Source of the DNA: Armatimonadota bacterium
Lineage (GTDB): Bacteria; Armatimonadota; Fimbriimonadia; Fimbriimonadales; Fimbriimonadaceae
Reading direction: 5' to 3'
DNA length: 64,000 bases
NCBI GenBank assembly: GCA_022563855.1
Contig: JADFMN010000012.1
Location: forward strand, 1-64,000
Part shown: positions 22,045 through 43,692 of the stretch, piece after piece
How positions within the stretch are numbered: position 1 is the first letter of the stretch
How the letters are laid out: each line of letters opens with the position of its first letter
Notes under the pieces: model-generated
The model's database searches: none
Seen by the model: the letters and a program-made list of their open reading frames with translations, nothing else
Told to the model about the DNA's origin: nothing
Made by a program: the position numbers and the translations under genes

Positions 22045-22317
22045 ACGAGCACGTGTGCCGCTGTCAGGCCCGCGCTTGGCGGTTCTGCGTCAAGCTCGGG
22101 ACAATGCTCACGGACCAGGATGCGGGCCAAACGCCCGCGCTCCGCATCCCTCCCCCTGTGGTAGGTGCTGGGGAGAAACGATCCGCTTCATTGGAGTCTG
22201 GCTAGATGCCGTGACCGAGGCTTAGACGAACATTCCAGACGGCGTGCAGCGTGAAACACGGCCAGAGCAGTGAGCCAACGTGGACAAGCCGGCCCTATCC
22301 GGTTCGCTAGGAGGATC
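22045..22317. other. Gene-free gap with C/T-rich hairpin remnants
   Basis: Contains a short pyrimidine-rich repeat (around 22146-22175, ccctccccctgtgg ... ggggagaa) related to the type A family. No gene or RNA is recognised here. Confidence 0.5.
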
Positions 22318-22386
22318 ATGATTGAAGCTGATCGTACCGAGAATATGGCCATTCGTGGAATAACGCCACCAAGGAAACCCCAATGA
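22318..22386 (+). CDS. 22-codon leader ORF coupled to the MshEN gene
   Basis: ATG 22318 is preceded by AGGAGG with a 3-base spacing, the strongest Shine-Dalgarno match seen in the window. The ORF encodes MIEADRTENMAIRGI... and stops at TGA 22384-22386, which overlaps the ATG of the next gene (ATGA at 22383-22386). This arrangement suggests translational coupling rather than a functional peptide. The downstream ATG has no ribosome-binding site of its own apart from AGGAAA within the leader. Confidence 0.6.
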   Translation: MIEADRTENMAIRGITPPRKPQ

Positions 22387-22955
22387 ATCGAGAGTACCTG
22401 CGATTAGGTGAAATACTGGTGGACAGAGGTCTACTGACTTCGGAGCAGGTCGCTCAGGCATTGGAGTCGCAGCGACGGAACCGTATGCGCTTAGGCGAGA
22501 TTGTGACGGCCGCGGGTTGGGTGACAGAAGAGGACCTAGCCAGAGCCTTGGCAGACCAATACGACTACGACTACGTCGATGCGAGTACGATAAAGCCTGA
22601 GAGCGATTCGTTGCACGCTGTTTCTGGGCGATTGGCGTTCGCCATGCTCATCTTGCCTTACCGCGAATTCGAATTCCGCCTGCATATCGCGACTGCCGAC
22701 CCGCTAGATATTGCGAGTACCGACAAGATTCGCTCCTTGCAAGACCTCCCCCTCAAGATTTCCGTCGCAGGCCCCACAGCCCTGCGCAGCGCGATCATCC
22801 GCCACTACACGCTGGAATGCGACCCCGAGCAGACTGCCCCTCGCCAGGTTCAGACAGCAAGGCCAACGAGGATCGACTGGCAGACTGATCGAGATGCGCT
22901 CTTGAAGGCCTTGGACGACATCAGGGGGAGCTGCCGCACCGCGGCGTGGAGATAA
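22383..22955 (+). CDS. Stand-alone MshEN (GspE N-terminal) domain protein, predicted c-di-GMP binder
   Basis: 190 residues with no ATPase domain. Residues 6-59 show the tandem MshEN signature: two copies of RLGEIxxxxG followed by LxxAL (R7-L8-G9 ... G16; R36-L37-G38 ... G45). In MshE-type ATPases this motif binds cyclic di-GMP. Residues 60-150 complete the GspE_N fold (LHIATADPLDIASTDKI). The last 40 residues are charged and unassigned. It is followed 15 bases later by a FlhG/MinD-like ATPase gene, so the two probably form one operon. The c-di-GMP binding is inferred from the motif. Confidence 0.82.
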   Translation: MNREYLRLGEILVDRGLLTSEQVAQALESQRRNRMRLGEIVTAAGWVTEEDLARALADQYDYDYVDASTIKPESDSLHAVSGRLAFAMLILPYREFEFRLHIATADPLDIASTDKIRSLQDLPLKISVAGPTALRSAIIRHYTLECDPEQTAPRQVQTARPTRIDWQTDRDALLKALDDIRGSCRTAAWR

Positions 22956-22970
22956 AGTCAGGGAAGACCA

Positions 22971-23729
22971 ATGAGAACAATCGCTTTGACAAGTGGAAAG
23001 GGAGGCGTCGGGAAAACGTCGATCTCCATCAACATCGCGATCGCGCTGACGCGGATGGGCAAGCGCGTTGCGCTCTTCGACGCCGATCTCCAGCTAGCAA
23101 ACATCGACGTCATGGTGGGATGCCACTCTGAATACAACCTCCAGCACGTCCTCAACGGCGAGAAAACCTTGCGAGAGATCATGACCCCCGGCCCAGCGGG
23201 CATTTCACTCGTAACTGGCGGTTCGGGAGTATCCCAGCTTATACACGCCGGACCCAAGCGCATGGCGACCTTCTTCTCGCAGATCGACGAGTTGGAAGAG
23301 GACTTCGAATTCTTGATCTATGACACGGCCGCAGGACTTGATAATCGCGTGTTCGCCTTCCTCAAGCGTGCAGACGAGACGTTGGTCGTCGCAACCCCAG
23401 ACGCGACGAGCATAACCGATGCCTACGCGCTCATCAAGGTGCTGTACCGACGAGAGCCCGACGCAATCGTCCGCGTCATCGTCAACCGAGTCAGGAACGA
23501 GCAAGAAGCGCGCTCCGTCTTCCGGGTGATCAAGAACACGGCGCACGAGTACCTTGACACGGACATCCTATACGGTGGATCCATACGATACGACGCCGCC
23601 TTTGATGATTCGATGCGCGAGCGACGCGCCTTGCTCGAAGCGTTTCCAAATGCAAAGTGTGCCGCCGATTTTGAAACCGTGGCACGCGAGCTCTGCATTC
23701 CAGTGTATCGAAATACAAGCGCGGCGTAG
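22971..23729 (+). CDS. FlhG/MinD-like P-loop ATPase
   Basis: 252 residues. A deviant Walker A (SGKGGVGKTSIS, residues 8-19), the switch-I Asp (FDADLQLANIDVMVG) and a Walker B equivalent (FLIYDTAAGLD) place it in the MinD/FlhG/ParA class. The LANID ... NLQHVLNGE region and VTGGSGVSQL match FlhG better than MinD. No amphipathic C-terminal membrane helix is obvious, the end being IPVYRNTSAA. FlhG-type proteins count or position flagella, pili or secretion machines. It is paired with an MshEN protein and no flagellar gene lies nearby, so type IV pilus or T2S positioning is the best guess. Confidence 0.88.
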   Translation: MRTIALTSGKGGVGKTSISINIAIALTRMGKRVALFDADLQLANIDVMVGCHSEYNLQHVLNGEKTLREIMTPGPAGISLVTGGSGVSQLIHAGPKRMATFFSQIDELEEDFEFLIYDTAAGLDNRVFAFLKRADETLVVATPDATSITDAYALIKVLYRREPDAIVRVIVNRVRNEQEARSVFRVIKNTAHEYLDTDILYGGSIRYDAAFDDSMRERRALLEAFPNAKCAADFETVARELCIPVYRNTSAA

Positions 23730-28032: not shown

Positions 28033-28563
28033 GTGAATCTCTTGTGGCCATTCACTAATACCGTAAAAGTGTCTTGCCCCGACGGCCGAGTCGTCTACGT
28101 GTATAAGAACGTGGAAAGTGCATTCAGATCCTATGTCCGAGAGCCCTCTATCAGGTTCGGCGCGAAACTAGATCTCCTGGGCGAGGTTTCTGGGGCGATT
28201 AGTGGCGAGGTGGCCTCCCGAGTAGACCGGCTGGTAAACCTGCATGACAGCCAAGTGGCCCACATCTTCATCGAGTTCCGCATCGCCTATGAGGTTTTCA
28301 AGTCCGATCCATGCAATCAAAACGAGTTCCTGGGCCGAGAAGTTGAGCGGATTCTCCAAGCGTACCGCCGCTTGAGACATTTTAACGCTGGAATACATGG
28401 TCTTATTGGCTTGGTAAGGGCGAACCCGGAAGACACTGACCGAATCGCTAAAACATTCGAAGAACTTGCCAGACACCATGGGGACATCATGGCGCCGGAG
28501 GCAACACAGGACGAAATCAGACAGACAAGAAAAGAAGCCGAAGAGTGGCGAGGGCCAGACTGA
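28033..28563 (+). CDS. Small helical partner of the ParA-TM ATPase
   Basis: 176 residues from GTG 28033. It begins with a beta-rich stretch (TVKVSCPDGRVVYVYKNVES) and continues as amphipathic helices (LLGEVSGAISGEVASRVDRL, EFLGREVERILQAYRRL). There is no signal or TM segment. The stop TGA shares its last base with the ATG of the next gene (TGATG, 28561-28565), so the pair is translationally coupled. The family is unknown. By position it is a candidate adaptor or activator of the neighbouring ATPase. Confidence 0.65.
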   Translation: MNLLWPFTNTVKVSCPDGRVVYVYKNVESAFRSYVREPSIRFGAKLDLLGEVSGAISGEVASRVDRLVNLHDSQVAHIFIEFRIAYEVFKSDPCNQNEFLGREVERILQAYRRLRHFNAGIHGLIGLVRANPEDTDRIAKTFEELARHHGDIMAPEATQDEIRQTRKEAEEWRGPD

Positions 28564-29777
28564 TGATCTGCAAGACATTGTGTTTCGCGAGCGCTAAGGG
28601 CGGTTCAGGGAAAACCGTGGTGGCAGCGTCCCTTGCAAAGCTCCTCGGGGCCCTCGGAAGGAAGGTAGTACTCATCGACGCCGACGCTGCCACCAACGGT
28701 CTTACGCTCTTCAACCTCCAAGAAGTACGGAAATGGGGCGAGATTAGCATCTCACAAGGAAACGAGCCTCTGGGCATTTTCGAGTGGGATCGAGACGGGC
28801 CTCCTCCAGGAATCATGAGACTTGACTCTAATGTATTCTTCTTGCCGGCGACATTCGCCTTCCAAAATACAGAGAACACCTTACCGGATCGCTTCCGGAT
28901 GTCCTTGACGTCGGCTGTTCAAATAATGAGAGAGGAATATGAATTCATCATAATAGATGCCCAAGCTGGATCGGATGTGTTTGCTTGCGTTGCAATGAGC
29001 CGTGAGGTATCGGACGAAGTCGTGATTGTTGCGGAGTACGATCCGGTCTCTGCGGCGGGTGTTGAGCGCCTAAAGGGCCTGCTGCGAAATGACCTGACCT
29101 ATGATCGCACTTGGGTGTTGTTGAACAAAATGCTTCCGGACTTCGCTAAGTCCTACGGAGATTTTCTGGAAGTAGCCAAGTATCTGCCGCCGCTACCTTG
29201 GGACTCTGATGTAATCATGGCTTATGCTCGGCGCAAGCTGGCAATTAACCTAGAAGAAGTAAACGAGTACACGATCGGCTTTCTTCGAATGGCCGAAACG
29301 CTCTTAGGAGATGAAGTCAAGTCATCGTTTGAGAAATGGAAGACGAAGCTTGAGTCCCAACTAAGGCGTCCCCTTCTCATTCGCCAGCATGAATTGGAAG
29401 CGAAACTGGATGCACTCGTTCACCTGCGGGCCGACCTTGAGAACTCGGGACGCGCAAAGCGCCGCCGTGCAGTATTATCGCTTTACGTGTTTGCGACGGC
29501 CATTATGACCTCCCTGATTTGGGCCGTCACTTTCACTTCCCCCGATTACCGAGCCTGGCCTGCGTGGATTCTCTTCGTCATAGGGATCGTCTCGCTTGTC
29601 TTGTTCAGCGTCGCACATACGATGTGGACTCGGGTAAGCCGAACGGCGGACCTAGAAGTCGAGCGGGCGCGGCTGCGGCGTCAGGAGCGCTACCTTGAAG
29701 ATAAGCTGAAGACGGTCCAGTCATTGGTATCAGCAGACTTCGACGAGATCGTCAAGGGCAGCGGGAGAACGTCGTGA
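28563..29777 (+). CDS. ParA/MinD-like ATPase with C-terminal membrane hairpin
   Basis: 404 residues from ATG 28563; the frame opens at GTG 28545, but the ATG gives a standard ATPase N-terminus. Deviant Walker A SAKGGSGKTVVA (~9-20), A' motif LIDADAATNG, and Walker B IIIDAQAGSDV. After the ATPase (to ~255) comes a charged coiled coil, two close TM segments (~303-325 and ~332-354) and a ~50-residue basic coiled-coil tail (ARLRRQERYLEDKLK). A ParA-class ATPase with an integral C-terminal hairpin is unusual. MinD uses a peripheral helix. Its role is unknown and it pairs with the 28033 gene. Confidence 0.85.
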   Translation: MICKTLCFASAKGGSGKTVVAASLAKLLGALGRKVVLIDADAATNGLTLFNLQEVRKWGEISISQGNEPLGIFEWDRDGPPPGIMRLDSNVFFLPATFAFQNTENTLPDRFRMSLTSAVQIMREEYEFIIIDAQAGSDVFACVAMSREVSDEVVIVAEYDPVSAAGVERLKGLLRNDLTYDRTWVLLNKMLPDFAKSYGDFLEVAKYLPPLPWDSDVIMAYARRKLAINLEEVNEYTIGFLRMAETLLGDEVKSSFEKWKTKLESQLRRPLLIRQHELEAKLDALVHLRADLENSGRAKRRRAVLSLYVFATAIMTSLIWAVTFTSPDYRAWPAWILFVIGIVSLVLFSVAHTMWTRVSRTADLEVERARLRRQERYLEDKLKTVQSLVSADFDEIVKGSGRTS

Positions 29778-41293: not shown

Positions 41294-42328
41294 ATGGCCA
41301 AGCTCCCTGAGGATCCGTTACGTGTAGTCGATGCGATTGCTGTCTCTATTCGAAGGGATGGCGATGATCGACTCTTGTCCATACTCGATGTTTGCGAGCC
41401 TGAATACGACTATCTCAATGAAGATTGGGGGATTAGTTACTATAACCTCATCTTGAATCTTCCATTTGAGACCTTCGCTACAGTCGAGTCAGACCAAGTA
41501 TCCATCGAAAAGCGCTTCACTGAGTTGGCATCAAGAGCAACTAGCACGTGTACGGACAGCCGTGTTTCCAACGTCATTCTTGGTGCAAACCTAGATGCTC
41601 CATCGGACTGGAGAAGTGGTGCCAAGCCAACACTCGCATCGGTCAGCGATGCAGATCGAATCTGGAAGCCAGGTTGGTTTCGCCTGTTCGTGAGTCATGA
41701 GTCAGGAATTAAAGCACAGGTCGCCGAATTCAAAACAGTCCTTGCAAAGAGGCACATTGATGCGTTCATAGCGCATGAGGACATCGAACCTACGTTGGAG
41801 TGGCAGGAAGAAATCTCTCTCTCACTCGCAAGCTGCCATGCAGTAGTTGCCGTAATCTCTCCTGCCTTTCACTCGTCGTTTTGGTGTCAGCAAGAAGTTG
41901 GGTGGGGGCTCGGGAGAGGCGTATTAGTCTTACCGATCAAACTTCCAAACGATCCAAAAGGCTTCATCGCATCGGTGCAAGCAATAAACGGGGGGACATC
42001 CGAGCTCTTGGAAACTAGGGAACAATTGGTAGACACGCTCGCGATTAACGAGCGCACTCGTCGGCAAATGCACGAACCTCTAATTCAAACACTTGAAAGA
42101 GCGCAAACTACTCGTGCAGGAAATATCATCGCGGACTCGCTAGAGCGCACACAAAGCTTGTCCGAAGAACACGCAAAGCGCATTGTTGCCGCTTCAAATC
42201 AGAATCGTTTTATCGTCTCAGATTCTGAACTCGTTACTCGCCTTCAGGCCGTTGCGGCACGATACGAAGCCAAAAGCAGCACGCCGACAGTCGAATCTGA
42301 CGAGTACGACCCCTTTGCGGACGACTAG
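41294..42328 (+). CDS. TIR-domain protein, 344 aa
   Basis: Residues ~128-240 form a TIR domain: RLFVSHESG (box 1 type), a central ALAKRHIDAFIAHEDI-like stretch, SCHAVVAVISPAFHSSFW and WCQQEVGWGLGRG, in which E201 is the expected NADase catalytic Glu. The N-terminal ~120 residues are an unrecognised domain. The C-terminal ~100 are helical and charged (NIIADSLERTQSLSEEHAKR). Bacterial TIR proteins often deplete NAD+ in anti-phage defence. The gene is bracketed by the repeat motif at 41213 and 42378 and followed by a PIN gene. Defence is an inference from domain and neighbours. Confidence 0.85.
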   Translation: MAKLPEDPLRVVDAIAVSIRRDGDDRLLSILDVCEPEYDYLNEDWGISYYNLILNLPFETFATVESDQVSIEKRFTELASRATSTCTDSRVSNVILGANLDAPSDWRSGAKPTLASVSDADRIWKPGWFRLFVSHESGIKAQVAEFKTVLAKRHIDAFIAHEDIEPTLEWQEEISLSLASCHAVVAVISPAFHSSFWCQQEVGWGLGRGVLVLPIKLPNDPKGFIASVQAINGGTSELLETREQLVDTLAINERTRRQMHEPLIQTLERAQTTRAGNIIADSLERTQSLSEEHAKRIVAASNQNRFIVSDSELVTRLQAVAARYEAKSSTPTVESDEYDPFADD

Positions 42329-42377
42329 GCGAGTGGCCCATCGTTAGTCAGACCACCCGGCGGCTCGGCGGCACACC

Positions 42378-42397
42378 CATCCAAACAACAGTGCCAC
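42378..42397 (+). repeat. Copy 2 of the CATCC-AACAACA motif
   Basis: catccaaacaacagtgccac, in the same orientation as the copies at 41213-41232 and 44669-44688. The rest of the 150-base gap is G+C-rich and without a gene. Confidence 0.55.
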
Positions 42398-42480
42398 CCG
42401 TTAGCCTGTCCACCCGCCCGGTGCCAGGAATCGTCTGCCCTAGCCAATCCTACTACTCGGGTAACGTCTTGTGCAGACCA

Positions 42481-43692
42481 ATGGCAATGGGTGGGAAAAA
42501 GCGCCGGCAAGCTCCCAGTGGCGCGGTACAGCGTGAGGATCCCGGGACGCACGTGATCGTGCCCGACACGAGCGTGCTATTCGACCATGATAAGAACGTG
42601 CCCGTAGACCAAGTGTTTGACGAGACTTGGGAGGCGTACAAGAGCGACTTTCAACTGGAGCTTGTCGTTCCTAAGACAGTTCGAGGCGAACTTATACACC
42701 AGCACGCGAAAGTCAATTGCGGTCTGCTCATGAAGGCGAACGATAGCTTTGAGAAAATAGAGCGCAACACAGGTAAGAGGTATAGCCATCGCGCGACAGC
42801 GTCGACCCTGGAGACGTTGGCACAGCAGAAGATTGATCGCTGGATAGATCTAAAAGGGGGGCGAATGCAGGAGACGCCGTACGCGAGCATCGACTGGGCG
42901 CACGTGGAACACTCCGCGATTCACCGGATTCCTCCATTTGCTGCAGACGACAAATCTGCCCCAACAGAGAAGGGTTTCCGAGATGCCATGATCCTGGAGA
43001 CTCTACAAGACTACTGCCGCCAAGAAACGCGCGACGTCCAAATCGCTTTCATATGCGCTGACAATTTGCTGCGAACAACGGCAGAGACGCGTCTAAGCGA
43101 CGATCACCGCGTTACGTGCTACGAGTCGGTTGATCAATTCCGCTCCTATTGCGAGCTCAAGAAGCGGGATCTCACCGTCGCGTTTGTGAAGAAGATTGTA
43201 GGGCGGGCATCCAAGAAGTTCTTCTTAAAGAACGATGAGAGCACCCTTTACTACCAAGAACAAGTGCGAGACTTTATTCGTTCGGAGTACAGCGCCCTGT
43301 TAGATTCGCCGAATACGTGGGCCGAGCCGCCGAGCGACCCGGTGACGTCGATAGAAGCAGACACGACCGCGGTTGTCGACGCCGGCCATTTTTACATCGC
43401 GCCTGCACTATTTCAGAGCATCGACGAGGAGGGCTGGTATATCTGGTCCTCACCCGTAGAATTCGTGAAGAAATACAAGAGAAAGCTCAGTCTGCTGTCG
43501 CTTGCGGCGCAGGCCACTCCGTTGATTCATGTCGTCACTTTCGCTGCCGTGTGGCGGTCACGAATCGCAACCAATGGTCGATTTCTAGCGCGTGAAATCC
43601 TAGAGATTCGTCCTCGTAAATCCGACCTACGGACGCCGAGGCCAATTGACCACGACCGGTATCATCGGCACGACCTTACGACCGTGAATTGA
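42481..43692 (+). CDS. PIN-domain (DUF4935-like) putative ribonuclease, 403 aa
   Basis: From ATG 42481 (an earlier frame start at 42391 lies inside the repeat). Residues ~22-215 match a PIN nuclease: VIVPDTSVLFD (first Asp), VPKTVRGEL (Glu), KGFRDAMILETLQ (Asp) and IAFICADNLL (Asp), the order and spacing of a DUF4935-type PIN domain. The C-terminal half has DAGHFYIAPALF and EEGWYIWSSPVEFVKKYKR and is unassigned. It follows the TIR gene on the same strand. A toxin or defence RNase role is inferred. Confidence 0.83.
   Translation: MAMGGKKRRQAPSGAVQREDPGTHVIVPDTSVLFDHDKNVPVDQVFDETWEAYKSDFQLELVVPKTVRGELIHQHAKVNCGLLMKANDSFEKIERNTGKRYSHRATASTLETLAQQKIDRWIDLKGGRMQETPYASIDWAHVEHSAIHRIPPFAADDKSAPTEKGFRDAMILETLQDYCRQETRDVQIAFICADNLLRTTAETRLSDDHRVTCYESVDQFRSYCELKKRDLTVAFVKKIVGRASKKFFLKNDESTLYYQEQVRDFIRSEYSALLDSPNTWAEPPSDPVTSIEADTTAVVDAGHFYIAPALFQSIDEEGWYIWSSPVEFVKKYKRKLSLLSLAAQATPLIHVVTFAAVWRSRIATNGRFLAREILEIRPRKSDLRTPRPIDHDRYHRHDLTTVN

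Follow-up and report, generated by a model that had tools for sequence, protein, structure and literature searches.

A stand-alone MshEN protein paired with an FlhG-like ATPase in Fimbriimonadales: a candidate c-di-GMP input to a positioning ATPase

The MshEN domains of MshE, PilB/PilF and NfrB carry tandem c-di-GMP motifs with a 5-residue spacer and usually stand N-terminal to a secretion ATPase or within a glycosyltransferase. In a Fimbriimonadaceae genome (3.18 Mb, 22 contigs, 96% complete), an MshEN protein with the same motifs, spacer and fold stands free, ends in a tail motif, and is followed by the gene of an FlhG-like ATPase, its prospective partner in trans. Do the two proteins form one unit, and does c-di-GMP act through it on a surface machine? 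We addressed this question within the window, the whole 64,000-nucleotide stretch of contig JADFMN010000012.1, and across related genomes. The features of the locus are as follows.

22318 to 22386, forward strand: leader ORF of 22 codons, MIEADRTENMAIRGITPPRKPQ, whose TGA overlaps the ATG of the MshEN gene (ATGA)
22383 to 22955, forward strand: stand-alone MshEN adaptor, 190 aa (Pfam PF05157, NCBIfam NF053729, AF2 model)
22401 to 22472, forward strand: c-di-GMP motif I, adaptor residues 7-30, RLGEILVDRGLLTSEQVAQALESQ, differing from the consensus in PMC5013675 solely at L25 (V)
22488 to 22559, forward strand: c-di-GMP motif II, adaptor residues 36-59, RLGEIVTAAGWVTEEDLARALADQ, with every listed key residue kept
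22560 to 22808, forward strand: MshEN_C subdomain, adaptor residues 60-142 (Pfam PF05157 match)
22881 to 22913, forward strand: tail motif QTDRDALLKAL, adaptor residues 167-177, a proposed ATPase-binding peptide (conservation, AF2 helix)
22971 to 23729, forward strand: FlhG/FleN-type MinD-like ATPase, 252 aa (phmmer, model compared with 5j1j_B)
22995 to 23018, forward strand: deviant Walker A, GKGGVGKT, ATPase residues 9-16 (sequence motif)
23073 to 23090, forward strand: Walker A', LFDADL, ATPase residues 35-40 (sequence motif)
23313 to 23330, forward strand: Walker B, LIYDTA, ATPase residues 115-120 (sequence motif)

Re-reading the ORFs of the window placed the leader, MshEN and ATPase genes where the original prediction had put them, with the same 15-nt gap between the end of the MshEN ORF (22955) and the start of the ATPase (22971). 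That prediction had also described a coupled leader with an optimal AGGAGG. Both the AGGAGG (22309-22314) and the ATGA overlap are present, but 'optimal' is too strong a word, because only 3 nt separate the AGGAGG from the leader ATG. An upstream ORF led by a Shine-Dalgarno sequence and abutting or overlapping the next gene occurs at 2 of 29 loci, the window included, against a rate of 4.9% in shuffled sequence. This is chance level; the leader was therefore rejected as a conserved regulatory part and is probably incidental. The MshEN gene has its own AAGGA 7 nt 5' of its ATG, by eye a plausible Shine-Dalgarno sequence. The surroundings of the leader ORF showed neither a sigma-70-like promoter nor a terminator, and an Rfam scan of the window gave zero matches.

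The identification of 22383-22955 as MshEN is well beyond chance. Residues 7-59 match the NCBIfam c-di-GMP_motif family NF053729 at 70.1 bits (cut-off 38), and residues 60-142 match Pfam MshEN at 38.1 bits (cut-off 23.1). MshEN is the only Pfam match in the 190-aa protein, and the T2SSE ATPase domain that follows MshEN in PilB and GspE is absent from it; the domain thus lacks an ATPase in cis, as predicted. Compared with the site given in the accessible part of PMC5013675, 13 of 14 key residues are kept, V replacing L25. The spacer between the two motifs is exactly 5 residues here and in every aligned homologue. The RLG...G residues had been singled out beforehand as those whose fate in homologues would be telling, and across an alignment of 30 sequences the Arg and Gly of the motifs are kept: G11, R38, G40, L58 and Q61 occur in 30/30, R9 in 26/30 and Q32 in 16/30. 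Among small adaptors Q32 is kept in 11/24 and L25 is replaced by R in 6/24; these per-column counts are rough, since a regular expression misanchored some motif columns and left single odd residues, whereas the 30-sequence count is aligned. The site of the window adaptor is better preserved than in many small relatives, and adaptors fused to a kinase-like domain keep it well. With Q32 or L25 gone from many small relatives, some members of the adaptor family may be free of c-di-GMP control. The AF2 model of the adaptor (mean pLDDT 86.9) shows the MshEN_N plus MshEN_C fold and superimposes on MshE with c-di-GMP (5htl_B) with Z 18.2 and an rmsd of 2.1 over 138 aligned residues; against c-di-GMP-bound PilF, Z is about 17. 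Sequence and model together make it likely that the window adaptor binds c-di-GMP. The host genome has seven GGDEF domain matches.

The downstream gene was predicted to encode an FlhG/MinD-like ATPase, and its FlhG-type identity is likewise well beyond chance. In phmmer searches the protein matches FleN (5j1j) at 190.3 bits (E 3.1e-55, query 2-241 to chain 16-255), against 141 bits for FlhG (4rz2) and 98 bits for MinD (1hyq). Residues 195-442 of the AF2 model of the read-through chain superimpose on 5j1j_B with Z 34.9 and an rmsd of 1.9 over 248 aligned residues, against Z 29.8 in the comparison of FleN/FlhG with MinD. By sequence and model, then, the ATPase core is nearer FleN/FlhG than MinD. 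With FlhG/FleN (YlxH, MinD2), ATPases that count and place flagella, it has in common the core sequence and fold and the Walker A (deviant), A' and B motifs. The hallmarks of FlhG, as far as the accessible part of the review PMC12826062 goes, are an N-terminal DQAxxLR helix, which activates FlhF, and a C-terminal membrane helix. The window ATPase differs in both: it starts MRTIALTSGKGG, residue 2 aligning with FleN 16, with no N-terminal DQAxxLR enhancer helix, and after the core it ends in CIPVYRNTSAA, in which no membrane-targeting helix is seen by eye. It also differs in that no flhF gene adjoins it and no FlhF was found in the genome, and in having an MshEN protein as its proposed partner. 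Other Armatimonadota ATPases do carry a DQAxGLR-type motif, some in the order flhA-flhF-flhG-fliA (gene names assigned by eye). Several of the genes for DQAxGLR-type FlhG proteins of other Armatimonadota (L170-L176) are not part of a flagellar operon; by eye, their neighbours are glgA-like genes or encode small proteins with VADLLG close to the end.

Co-occurrence of the two genes in other genomes was the check proposed at the outset, and the pair is conserved across Fimbriimonadales while its surroundings are shuffled. When 101 relatives were searched with the MshEN protein, 28 of the best 29 foreign loci had a MinD-type ATPase directly downstream in the same order, the remaining one lying at a contig end. 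Fimbriimonadales genomes with the ATPase at E 1e-50 number 42, and in 38 the gene immediately upstream encodes an MshEN adaptor. For 34 of these the adaptor sequence itself was read; in G008 and G036 a contig edge leaves just a fragment of its tail, and for G018 and G042 the assignment is by coordinates. G001, whose match is a second ATPase of the type described below for contig C6, is not counted among the 42, nor are two phylum-level genomes, G095 and G099. Four genomes depart from the pattern: G020 and G028 have the ATPase without an adaptor, and in G029 and G047 the upstream protein has no Pfam match. G037 has a more distant related pair, whose adaptor is without the tail motif. In a separate collection of 80 named loci the pair is found in 11 and not in 69, the latter mostly PilB/GspE proteins; all 11 carry the tail motif or a close variant. 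Ten of the 11 are labelled Armatimonadota or subgroups of it, several of them Fimbriimonadales or Fimbriimonadaceae. The eleventh, L068, is labelled a Methanoregulaceae archaeon; it has a kinase-type pair with a tail nearly identical to that of Fimbriimonadaceae L103, and its contig is probably mis-binned. Clustering of 18 neighbourhoods, in which L044 and L067 share one contig and L068 and L103 are nearly identical, left only adaptor and ATPase widely shared, every other cluster covering at most four loci. ORF picking overlooked the adaptor or the ATPase in L042 and L043; both genes are present there (as L010 and L015).

We then considered the C-terminal tail of the adaptor. All but a few adaptors end in the consensus Q-x-D-R-x-A-L-L-x-A-[LI]; of 36 non-redundant adaptors, 32 contain DRxxL[LI], where shuffled tails would give 0.21. 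The motif is common to the 190-aa adaptors and to those fused to a kinase-like domain. Near variants are EDTFALLAAL in L015, DKFVLL in L011 and EREHLL in L058, and the RDFDALHEML of L149 is degenerate. In alignment A4, which combines adaptors and ATPases, most truncated adaptors have their last 10-13 residues misplaced in ATPase columns. On contig C5 the host genome has a solitary MshEN protein that has no ATPase next to it and is without the motif, and the G029 and G047 upstream proteins, with no Pfam MshEN match, keep tails reading DRKMLIDSY or DRSALIDSY; the tail motif thus tracks the ATPase, not MshEN. The adaptor linker has low pLDDT in AF2 and a net charge of -1 in the window adaptor, the charge being positive in 21/24 small adaptors. 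The C5 protein (146 aa; L039 9390-9830, minus strand) has as neighbours, by eye, an aldo/keto-reductase-like gene and a pair of small heat-shock-like and Lon-like genes.

Natural fusions also join the two families. Single ORFs combining MshEN_C with an FlhG-like ATPase were found in L179 (33.1 bits), L181 (50.9 bits) and L178 (45.6 bits; Pfam cut-off 23.1), all three retaining MshEN_C only. The L179 and L181 fusions have tryptophan-containing tails resembling membrane helices. Other adaptors of about 445 aa, such as L012, L019 and L033, carry a kinase-like domain between MshEN and the tail motif; by eye it is without the HRD and DFG motifs and so looks like a pseudokinase. At their C-termini, these adaptors of greater length and the ATPases paired with them have short basic-aromatic segments, for example FWRRLFGKRAA, which resemble the membrane helices of MinD-type proteins and which the window proteins do not have. 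The host genome itself holds a second pair:

L038 8970-10415 and 10420-11319, equal to contig C6 152969-154414 and 154419-155318: a 481-aa acidic protein followed 4 nt on by a 299-aa FlhG-like ATPase

The 481-aa protein matches MshEN_C at 32.1 bits (residues 369-444) and contains two M(S/T)(E/D)DEIQALLA motifs.

These observations bear on whether the pair is a unit at all. A pilus-type regulator and a MinD-type ATPase might share a promoter and no function, and AF2 would fit such an arrangement: comparison of the read-through monomer chain with the adaptor alone gave no signal of the tail docking on the ATPase, the pLDDT of the tail helix being 69 in the chain and 82 in the adaptor alone. This is weak counter-evidence, because a monomer was modelled, whereas FlhG partners may require the dimeric form. 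Also speaking against the unit are the adaptor-less ATPases of G020 and G028, the G037 pair without the tail motif and the linker of the window adaptor, which is not basic. The order and close spacing of the pair, constant amid scrambled neighbourhoods, the tail motif that goes with the ATPase and not with the MshEN domain, and the existence of natural fusions make a mere operon of convenience very improbable. We put the probability that the pair is one functional unit, with a cytoplasmic c-di-GMP receptor as dedicated partner of an FlhG-like ATPase, at roughly 60%.

The unit might instead have moved past c-di-GMP signalling, with the adaptor a structural scaffold whose tail recruits the ATPase and whose MshEN fold is kept for protein contacts. 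The relaxed half-site I of the small adaptors, in which fold residues are retained, the restriction of the three fusions to MshEN_C, and the G029 and G047 proteins, whose tail persists next to no MshEN match, all lean this way. The near-complete site of the window adaptor and the well-kept site of the kinase-fused forms do not, and R38, G40, L58 and Q61 are invariant (n=30), seemingly more than the fold needs; we regard a pure scaffold as rather unlikely. Since the pair is conserved and the Arg and Gly of the motifs are kept, the c-di-GMP-controlled positioning switch that was originally proposed is a good working hypothesis.

In such a receptor-partner unit, the MshEN module would bind c-di-GMP through its two tandem 24-residue motifs, as sequence and fold suggest. 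The flexible C-terminal tail, ending in the short helix QxDRxALLxAL, would dock on the ATPase, a role that its conservation argues for, and the ATPase, to judge by its intact Walker motifs, would cycle between ATP dimer and monomer like FlhG. With the DQAxxLR helix that drives FlhF gone from the ATPase, and a search of the host genome yielding no FlhF, the adaptor may supply the regulatory input in place of FlhF, so that the c-di-GMP level would set the place or copy number of a surface machine. The best FlhF match in the host genome reaches 82 bits, under the cut-off of 174, and no flhF gene neighbours the pair; FlhF above cut-off was found in 4 of 21 genomes.

Which machine this would be is less clear-cut, though as probable cargo the flagellum ranks ahead of the type IV pilus. 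The usual flagellar, pilus or T2S partners were said to be absent from the window. This holds within the ORFs scanned with Pfam (29 larger ORFs, the pair included, among 51 ORFs of at least 140 aa), but another contig of the host genome carries FliF, a fli cluster, FliM/FliN and pilB-HDOD-pilT. FliF is present in 41/42 genomes with the ATPase against 35/47 without (p 0.002), in 36/36 against 28/32 at 90% completeness (p 0.044) and in 32/32 against 22/25 at 95% completeness (p 0.079), all uncorrected for relatedness. Assignment to the flagellum by co-occurrence was dropped, the FliF link being weak once incomplete genomes are removed. FliM/FliN occur in 21 of 21 genomes, pair or no pair, including G004 with no FliF match; co-occurrence therefore does not single out the flagellum.

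More specific hints come from the ATPase and the tail. The relationship to FlhG and a FliM-like peptide favour flagella. FlhG contacts the N-terminus of FliM, according to the part consulted of PMC12826062. In 8 of the 30 FliM/FliN loci scanned in these genomes the motif could be located, FliM there starting near SQAEIEALLxSL, so that both the tail motif and the C6 motifs recall the FliM peptide; the adaptor consensus Q-x-D-R-x-A-L-L-x-A-L compares with Q-A-E-I-E-A-L-L-x-S-L in FliM of Fimbriimonadales. With a BLOSUM profile of the 8 FliM peptides the tail ranked first in 20/35 adaptors and among the top three in 29/35, a ranking that is partly built in because windows were preselected for D/E..LL; 6/35 adaptors, the window's included, scored above the 95% level of shuffled proteins. 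A speculative scheme, to which we give a low probability, is flagellar counting free of FlhF, in which the C-terminus of the adaptor would mimic the N-terminal peptide of FliM and compete for the ATPase, and c-di-GMP would decide whether a C-ring is started.

For the pilus, the ATPase would place or license pilus machines, and the adaptor, as a free PilB N-terminal domain, would report c-di-GMP or titrate a pilus component. Pilus and T2S ATPases have MshEN as their N-terminal domain, and 99/101 relatives have MshEN matches, mostly in PilB/GspE-sized frames. The gene order in G028 also favours pili: pilB-HDOD-pilT follows 147 nt after the ATPase gene there, and no adaptor is present. Set against this, no pilus gene recurs beside the pair in the 18 neighbourhoods, and the nearest relatives of the ATPase are FlhG/FleN and not pilus ATPases of the TadZ/CpaE kind. 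Altogether, we give the flagellum about an even chance, hold the pilus to be a possible but clearly less probable cargo, and leave a still smaller share to some other structure.

Among known systems, FleQ-FleN of Pseudomonas (PDB 8pb9, 8p53) likewise joins a c-di-GMP-binding partner to an FlhG-type ATPase. FleQ is an AAA+ transcription factor with a different c-di-GMP site, and in FleQ-FleN c-di-GMP acts on the FlhG-type ATPase through the partner. The candidate partner in the window differs in being a small MshEN protein with neither a DNA-binding nor an AAA+ part. To our knowledge, the route from c-di-GMP to the machinery that counts and places flagella or pili runs mainly through FleQ-type regulators. 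Like the ParA/MinD ATPases with ParB, MinE or McdB-type partners, the window ATPase has a neighbouring candidate partner gene (38/42 genomes), whose product has a probably flexible terminal peptide. A flexible charged terminal peptide is described as the rule for such partners in the accessible part of PMC10241942, the charged peptide of published partners being N-terminal; the conserved peptide of the window adaptor is C-terminal, and its owner would be a second-messenger receptor. The EpsG profile TIGR03029, of a tyrosine kinase with an MshEN-like N-terminus, matches both proteins (adaptor 7-69 to profile positions 4-66, ATPase 2-158 to 104-260), but at 39 and 37.7 bits against a cut-off of 313.8. 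EpsG belongs to a different ATPase branch and joins the two parts in one protein, whereas the window has two separate genes.

Both protein families were known before; what appears to be new is the MshEN-FlhG pairing, the tail motif and the natural fusions. In the open-access literature no description of any of these was found (subscription papers lay outside the scope), the co-mentions having MshEN solely in a reference title. The MshEN fusions given in the part consulted of PMC5013675 are with REC, HD-GYP, CheA, CheX, cyclase and Ser/Thr kinase, MinD/FlhG not being among them. Many ParA/MinD ATPases are orphans whose partner is not known, according to the part consulted of PMC10241942. Fimbriimonadales are an order from which FlhF is mostly absent, and there a dedicated c-di-GMP receptor would be encoded as the constant companion of an FlhG-like ATPase, with the short tail motif and the natural fusions pointing to the contact site. 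The pair would make a small testable system, and MshEN together with a DRxALLxAL tail offers a search handle for others.

Two further gene pairs were seen in the window. Positions 28033-28563 and 28545-29777 form an unrelated unit of two overlapping genes, the second encoding a 410-aa ParA-type ATPase (KGGSGKT) whose C-terminal part weakly matches a membrane-protein family, and the first a 176-aa protein with no Pfam match. At 41294-43692 the genes for a TIR-domain and then a PIN-domain protein, both identified with Pfam, may form a defence-type pair.
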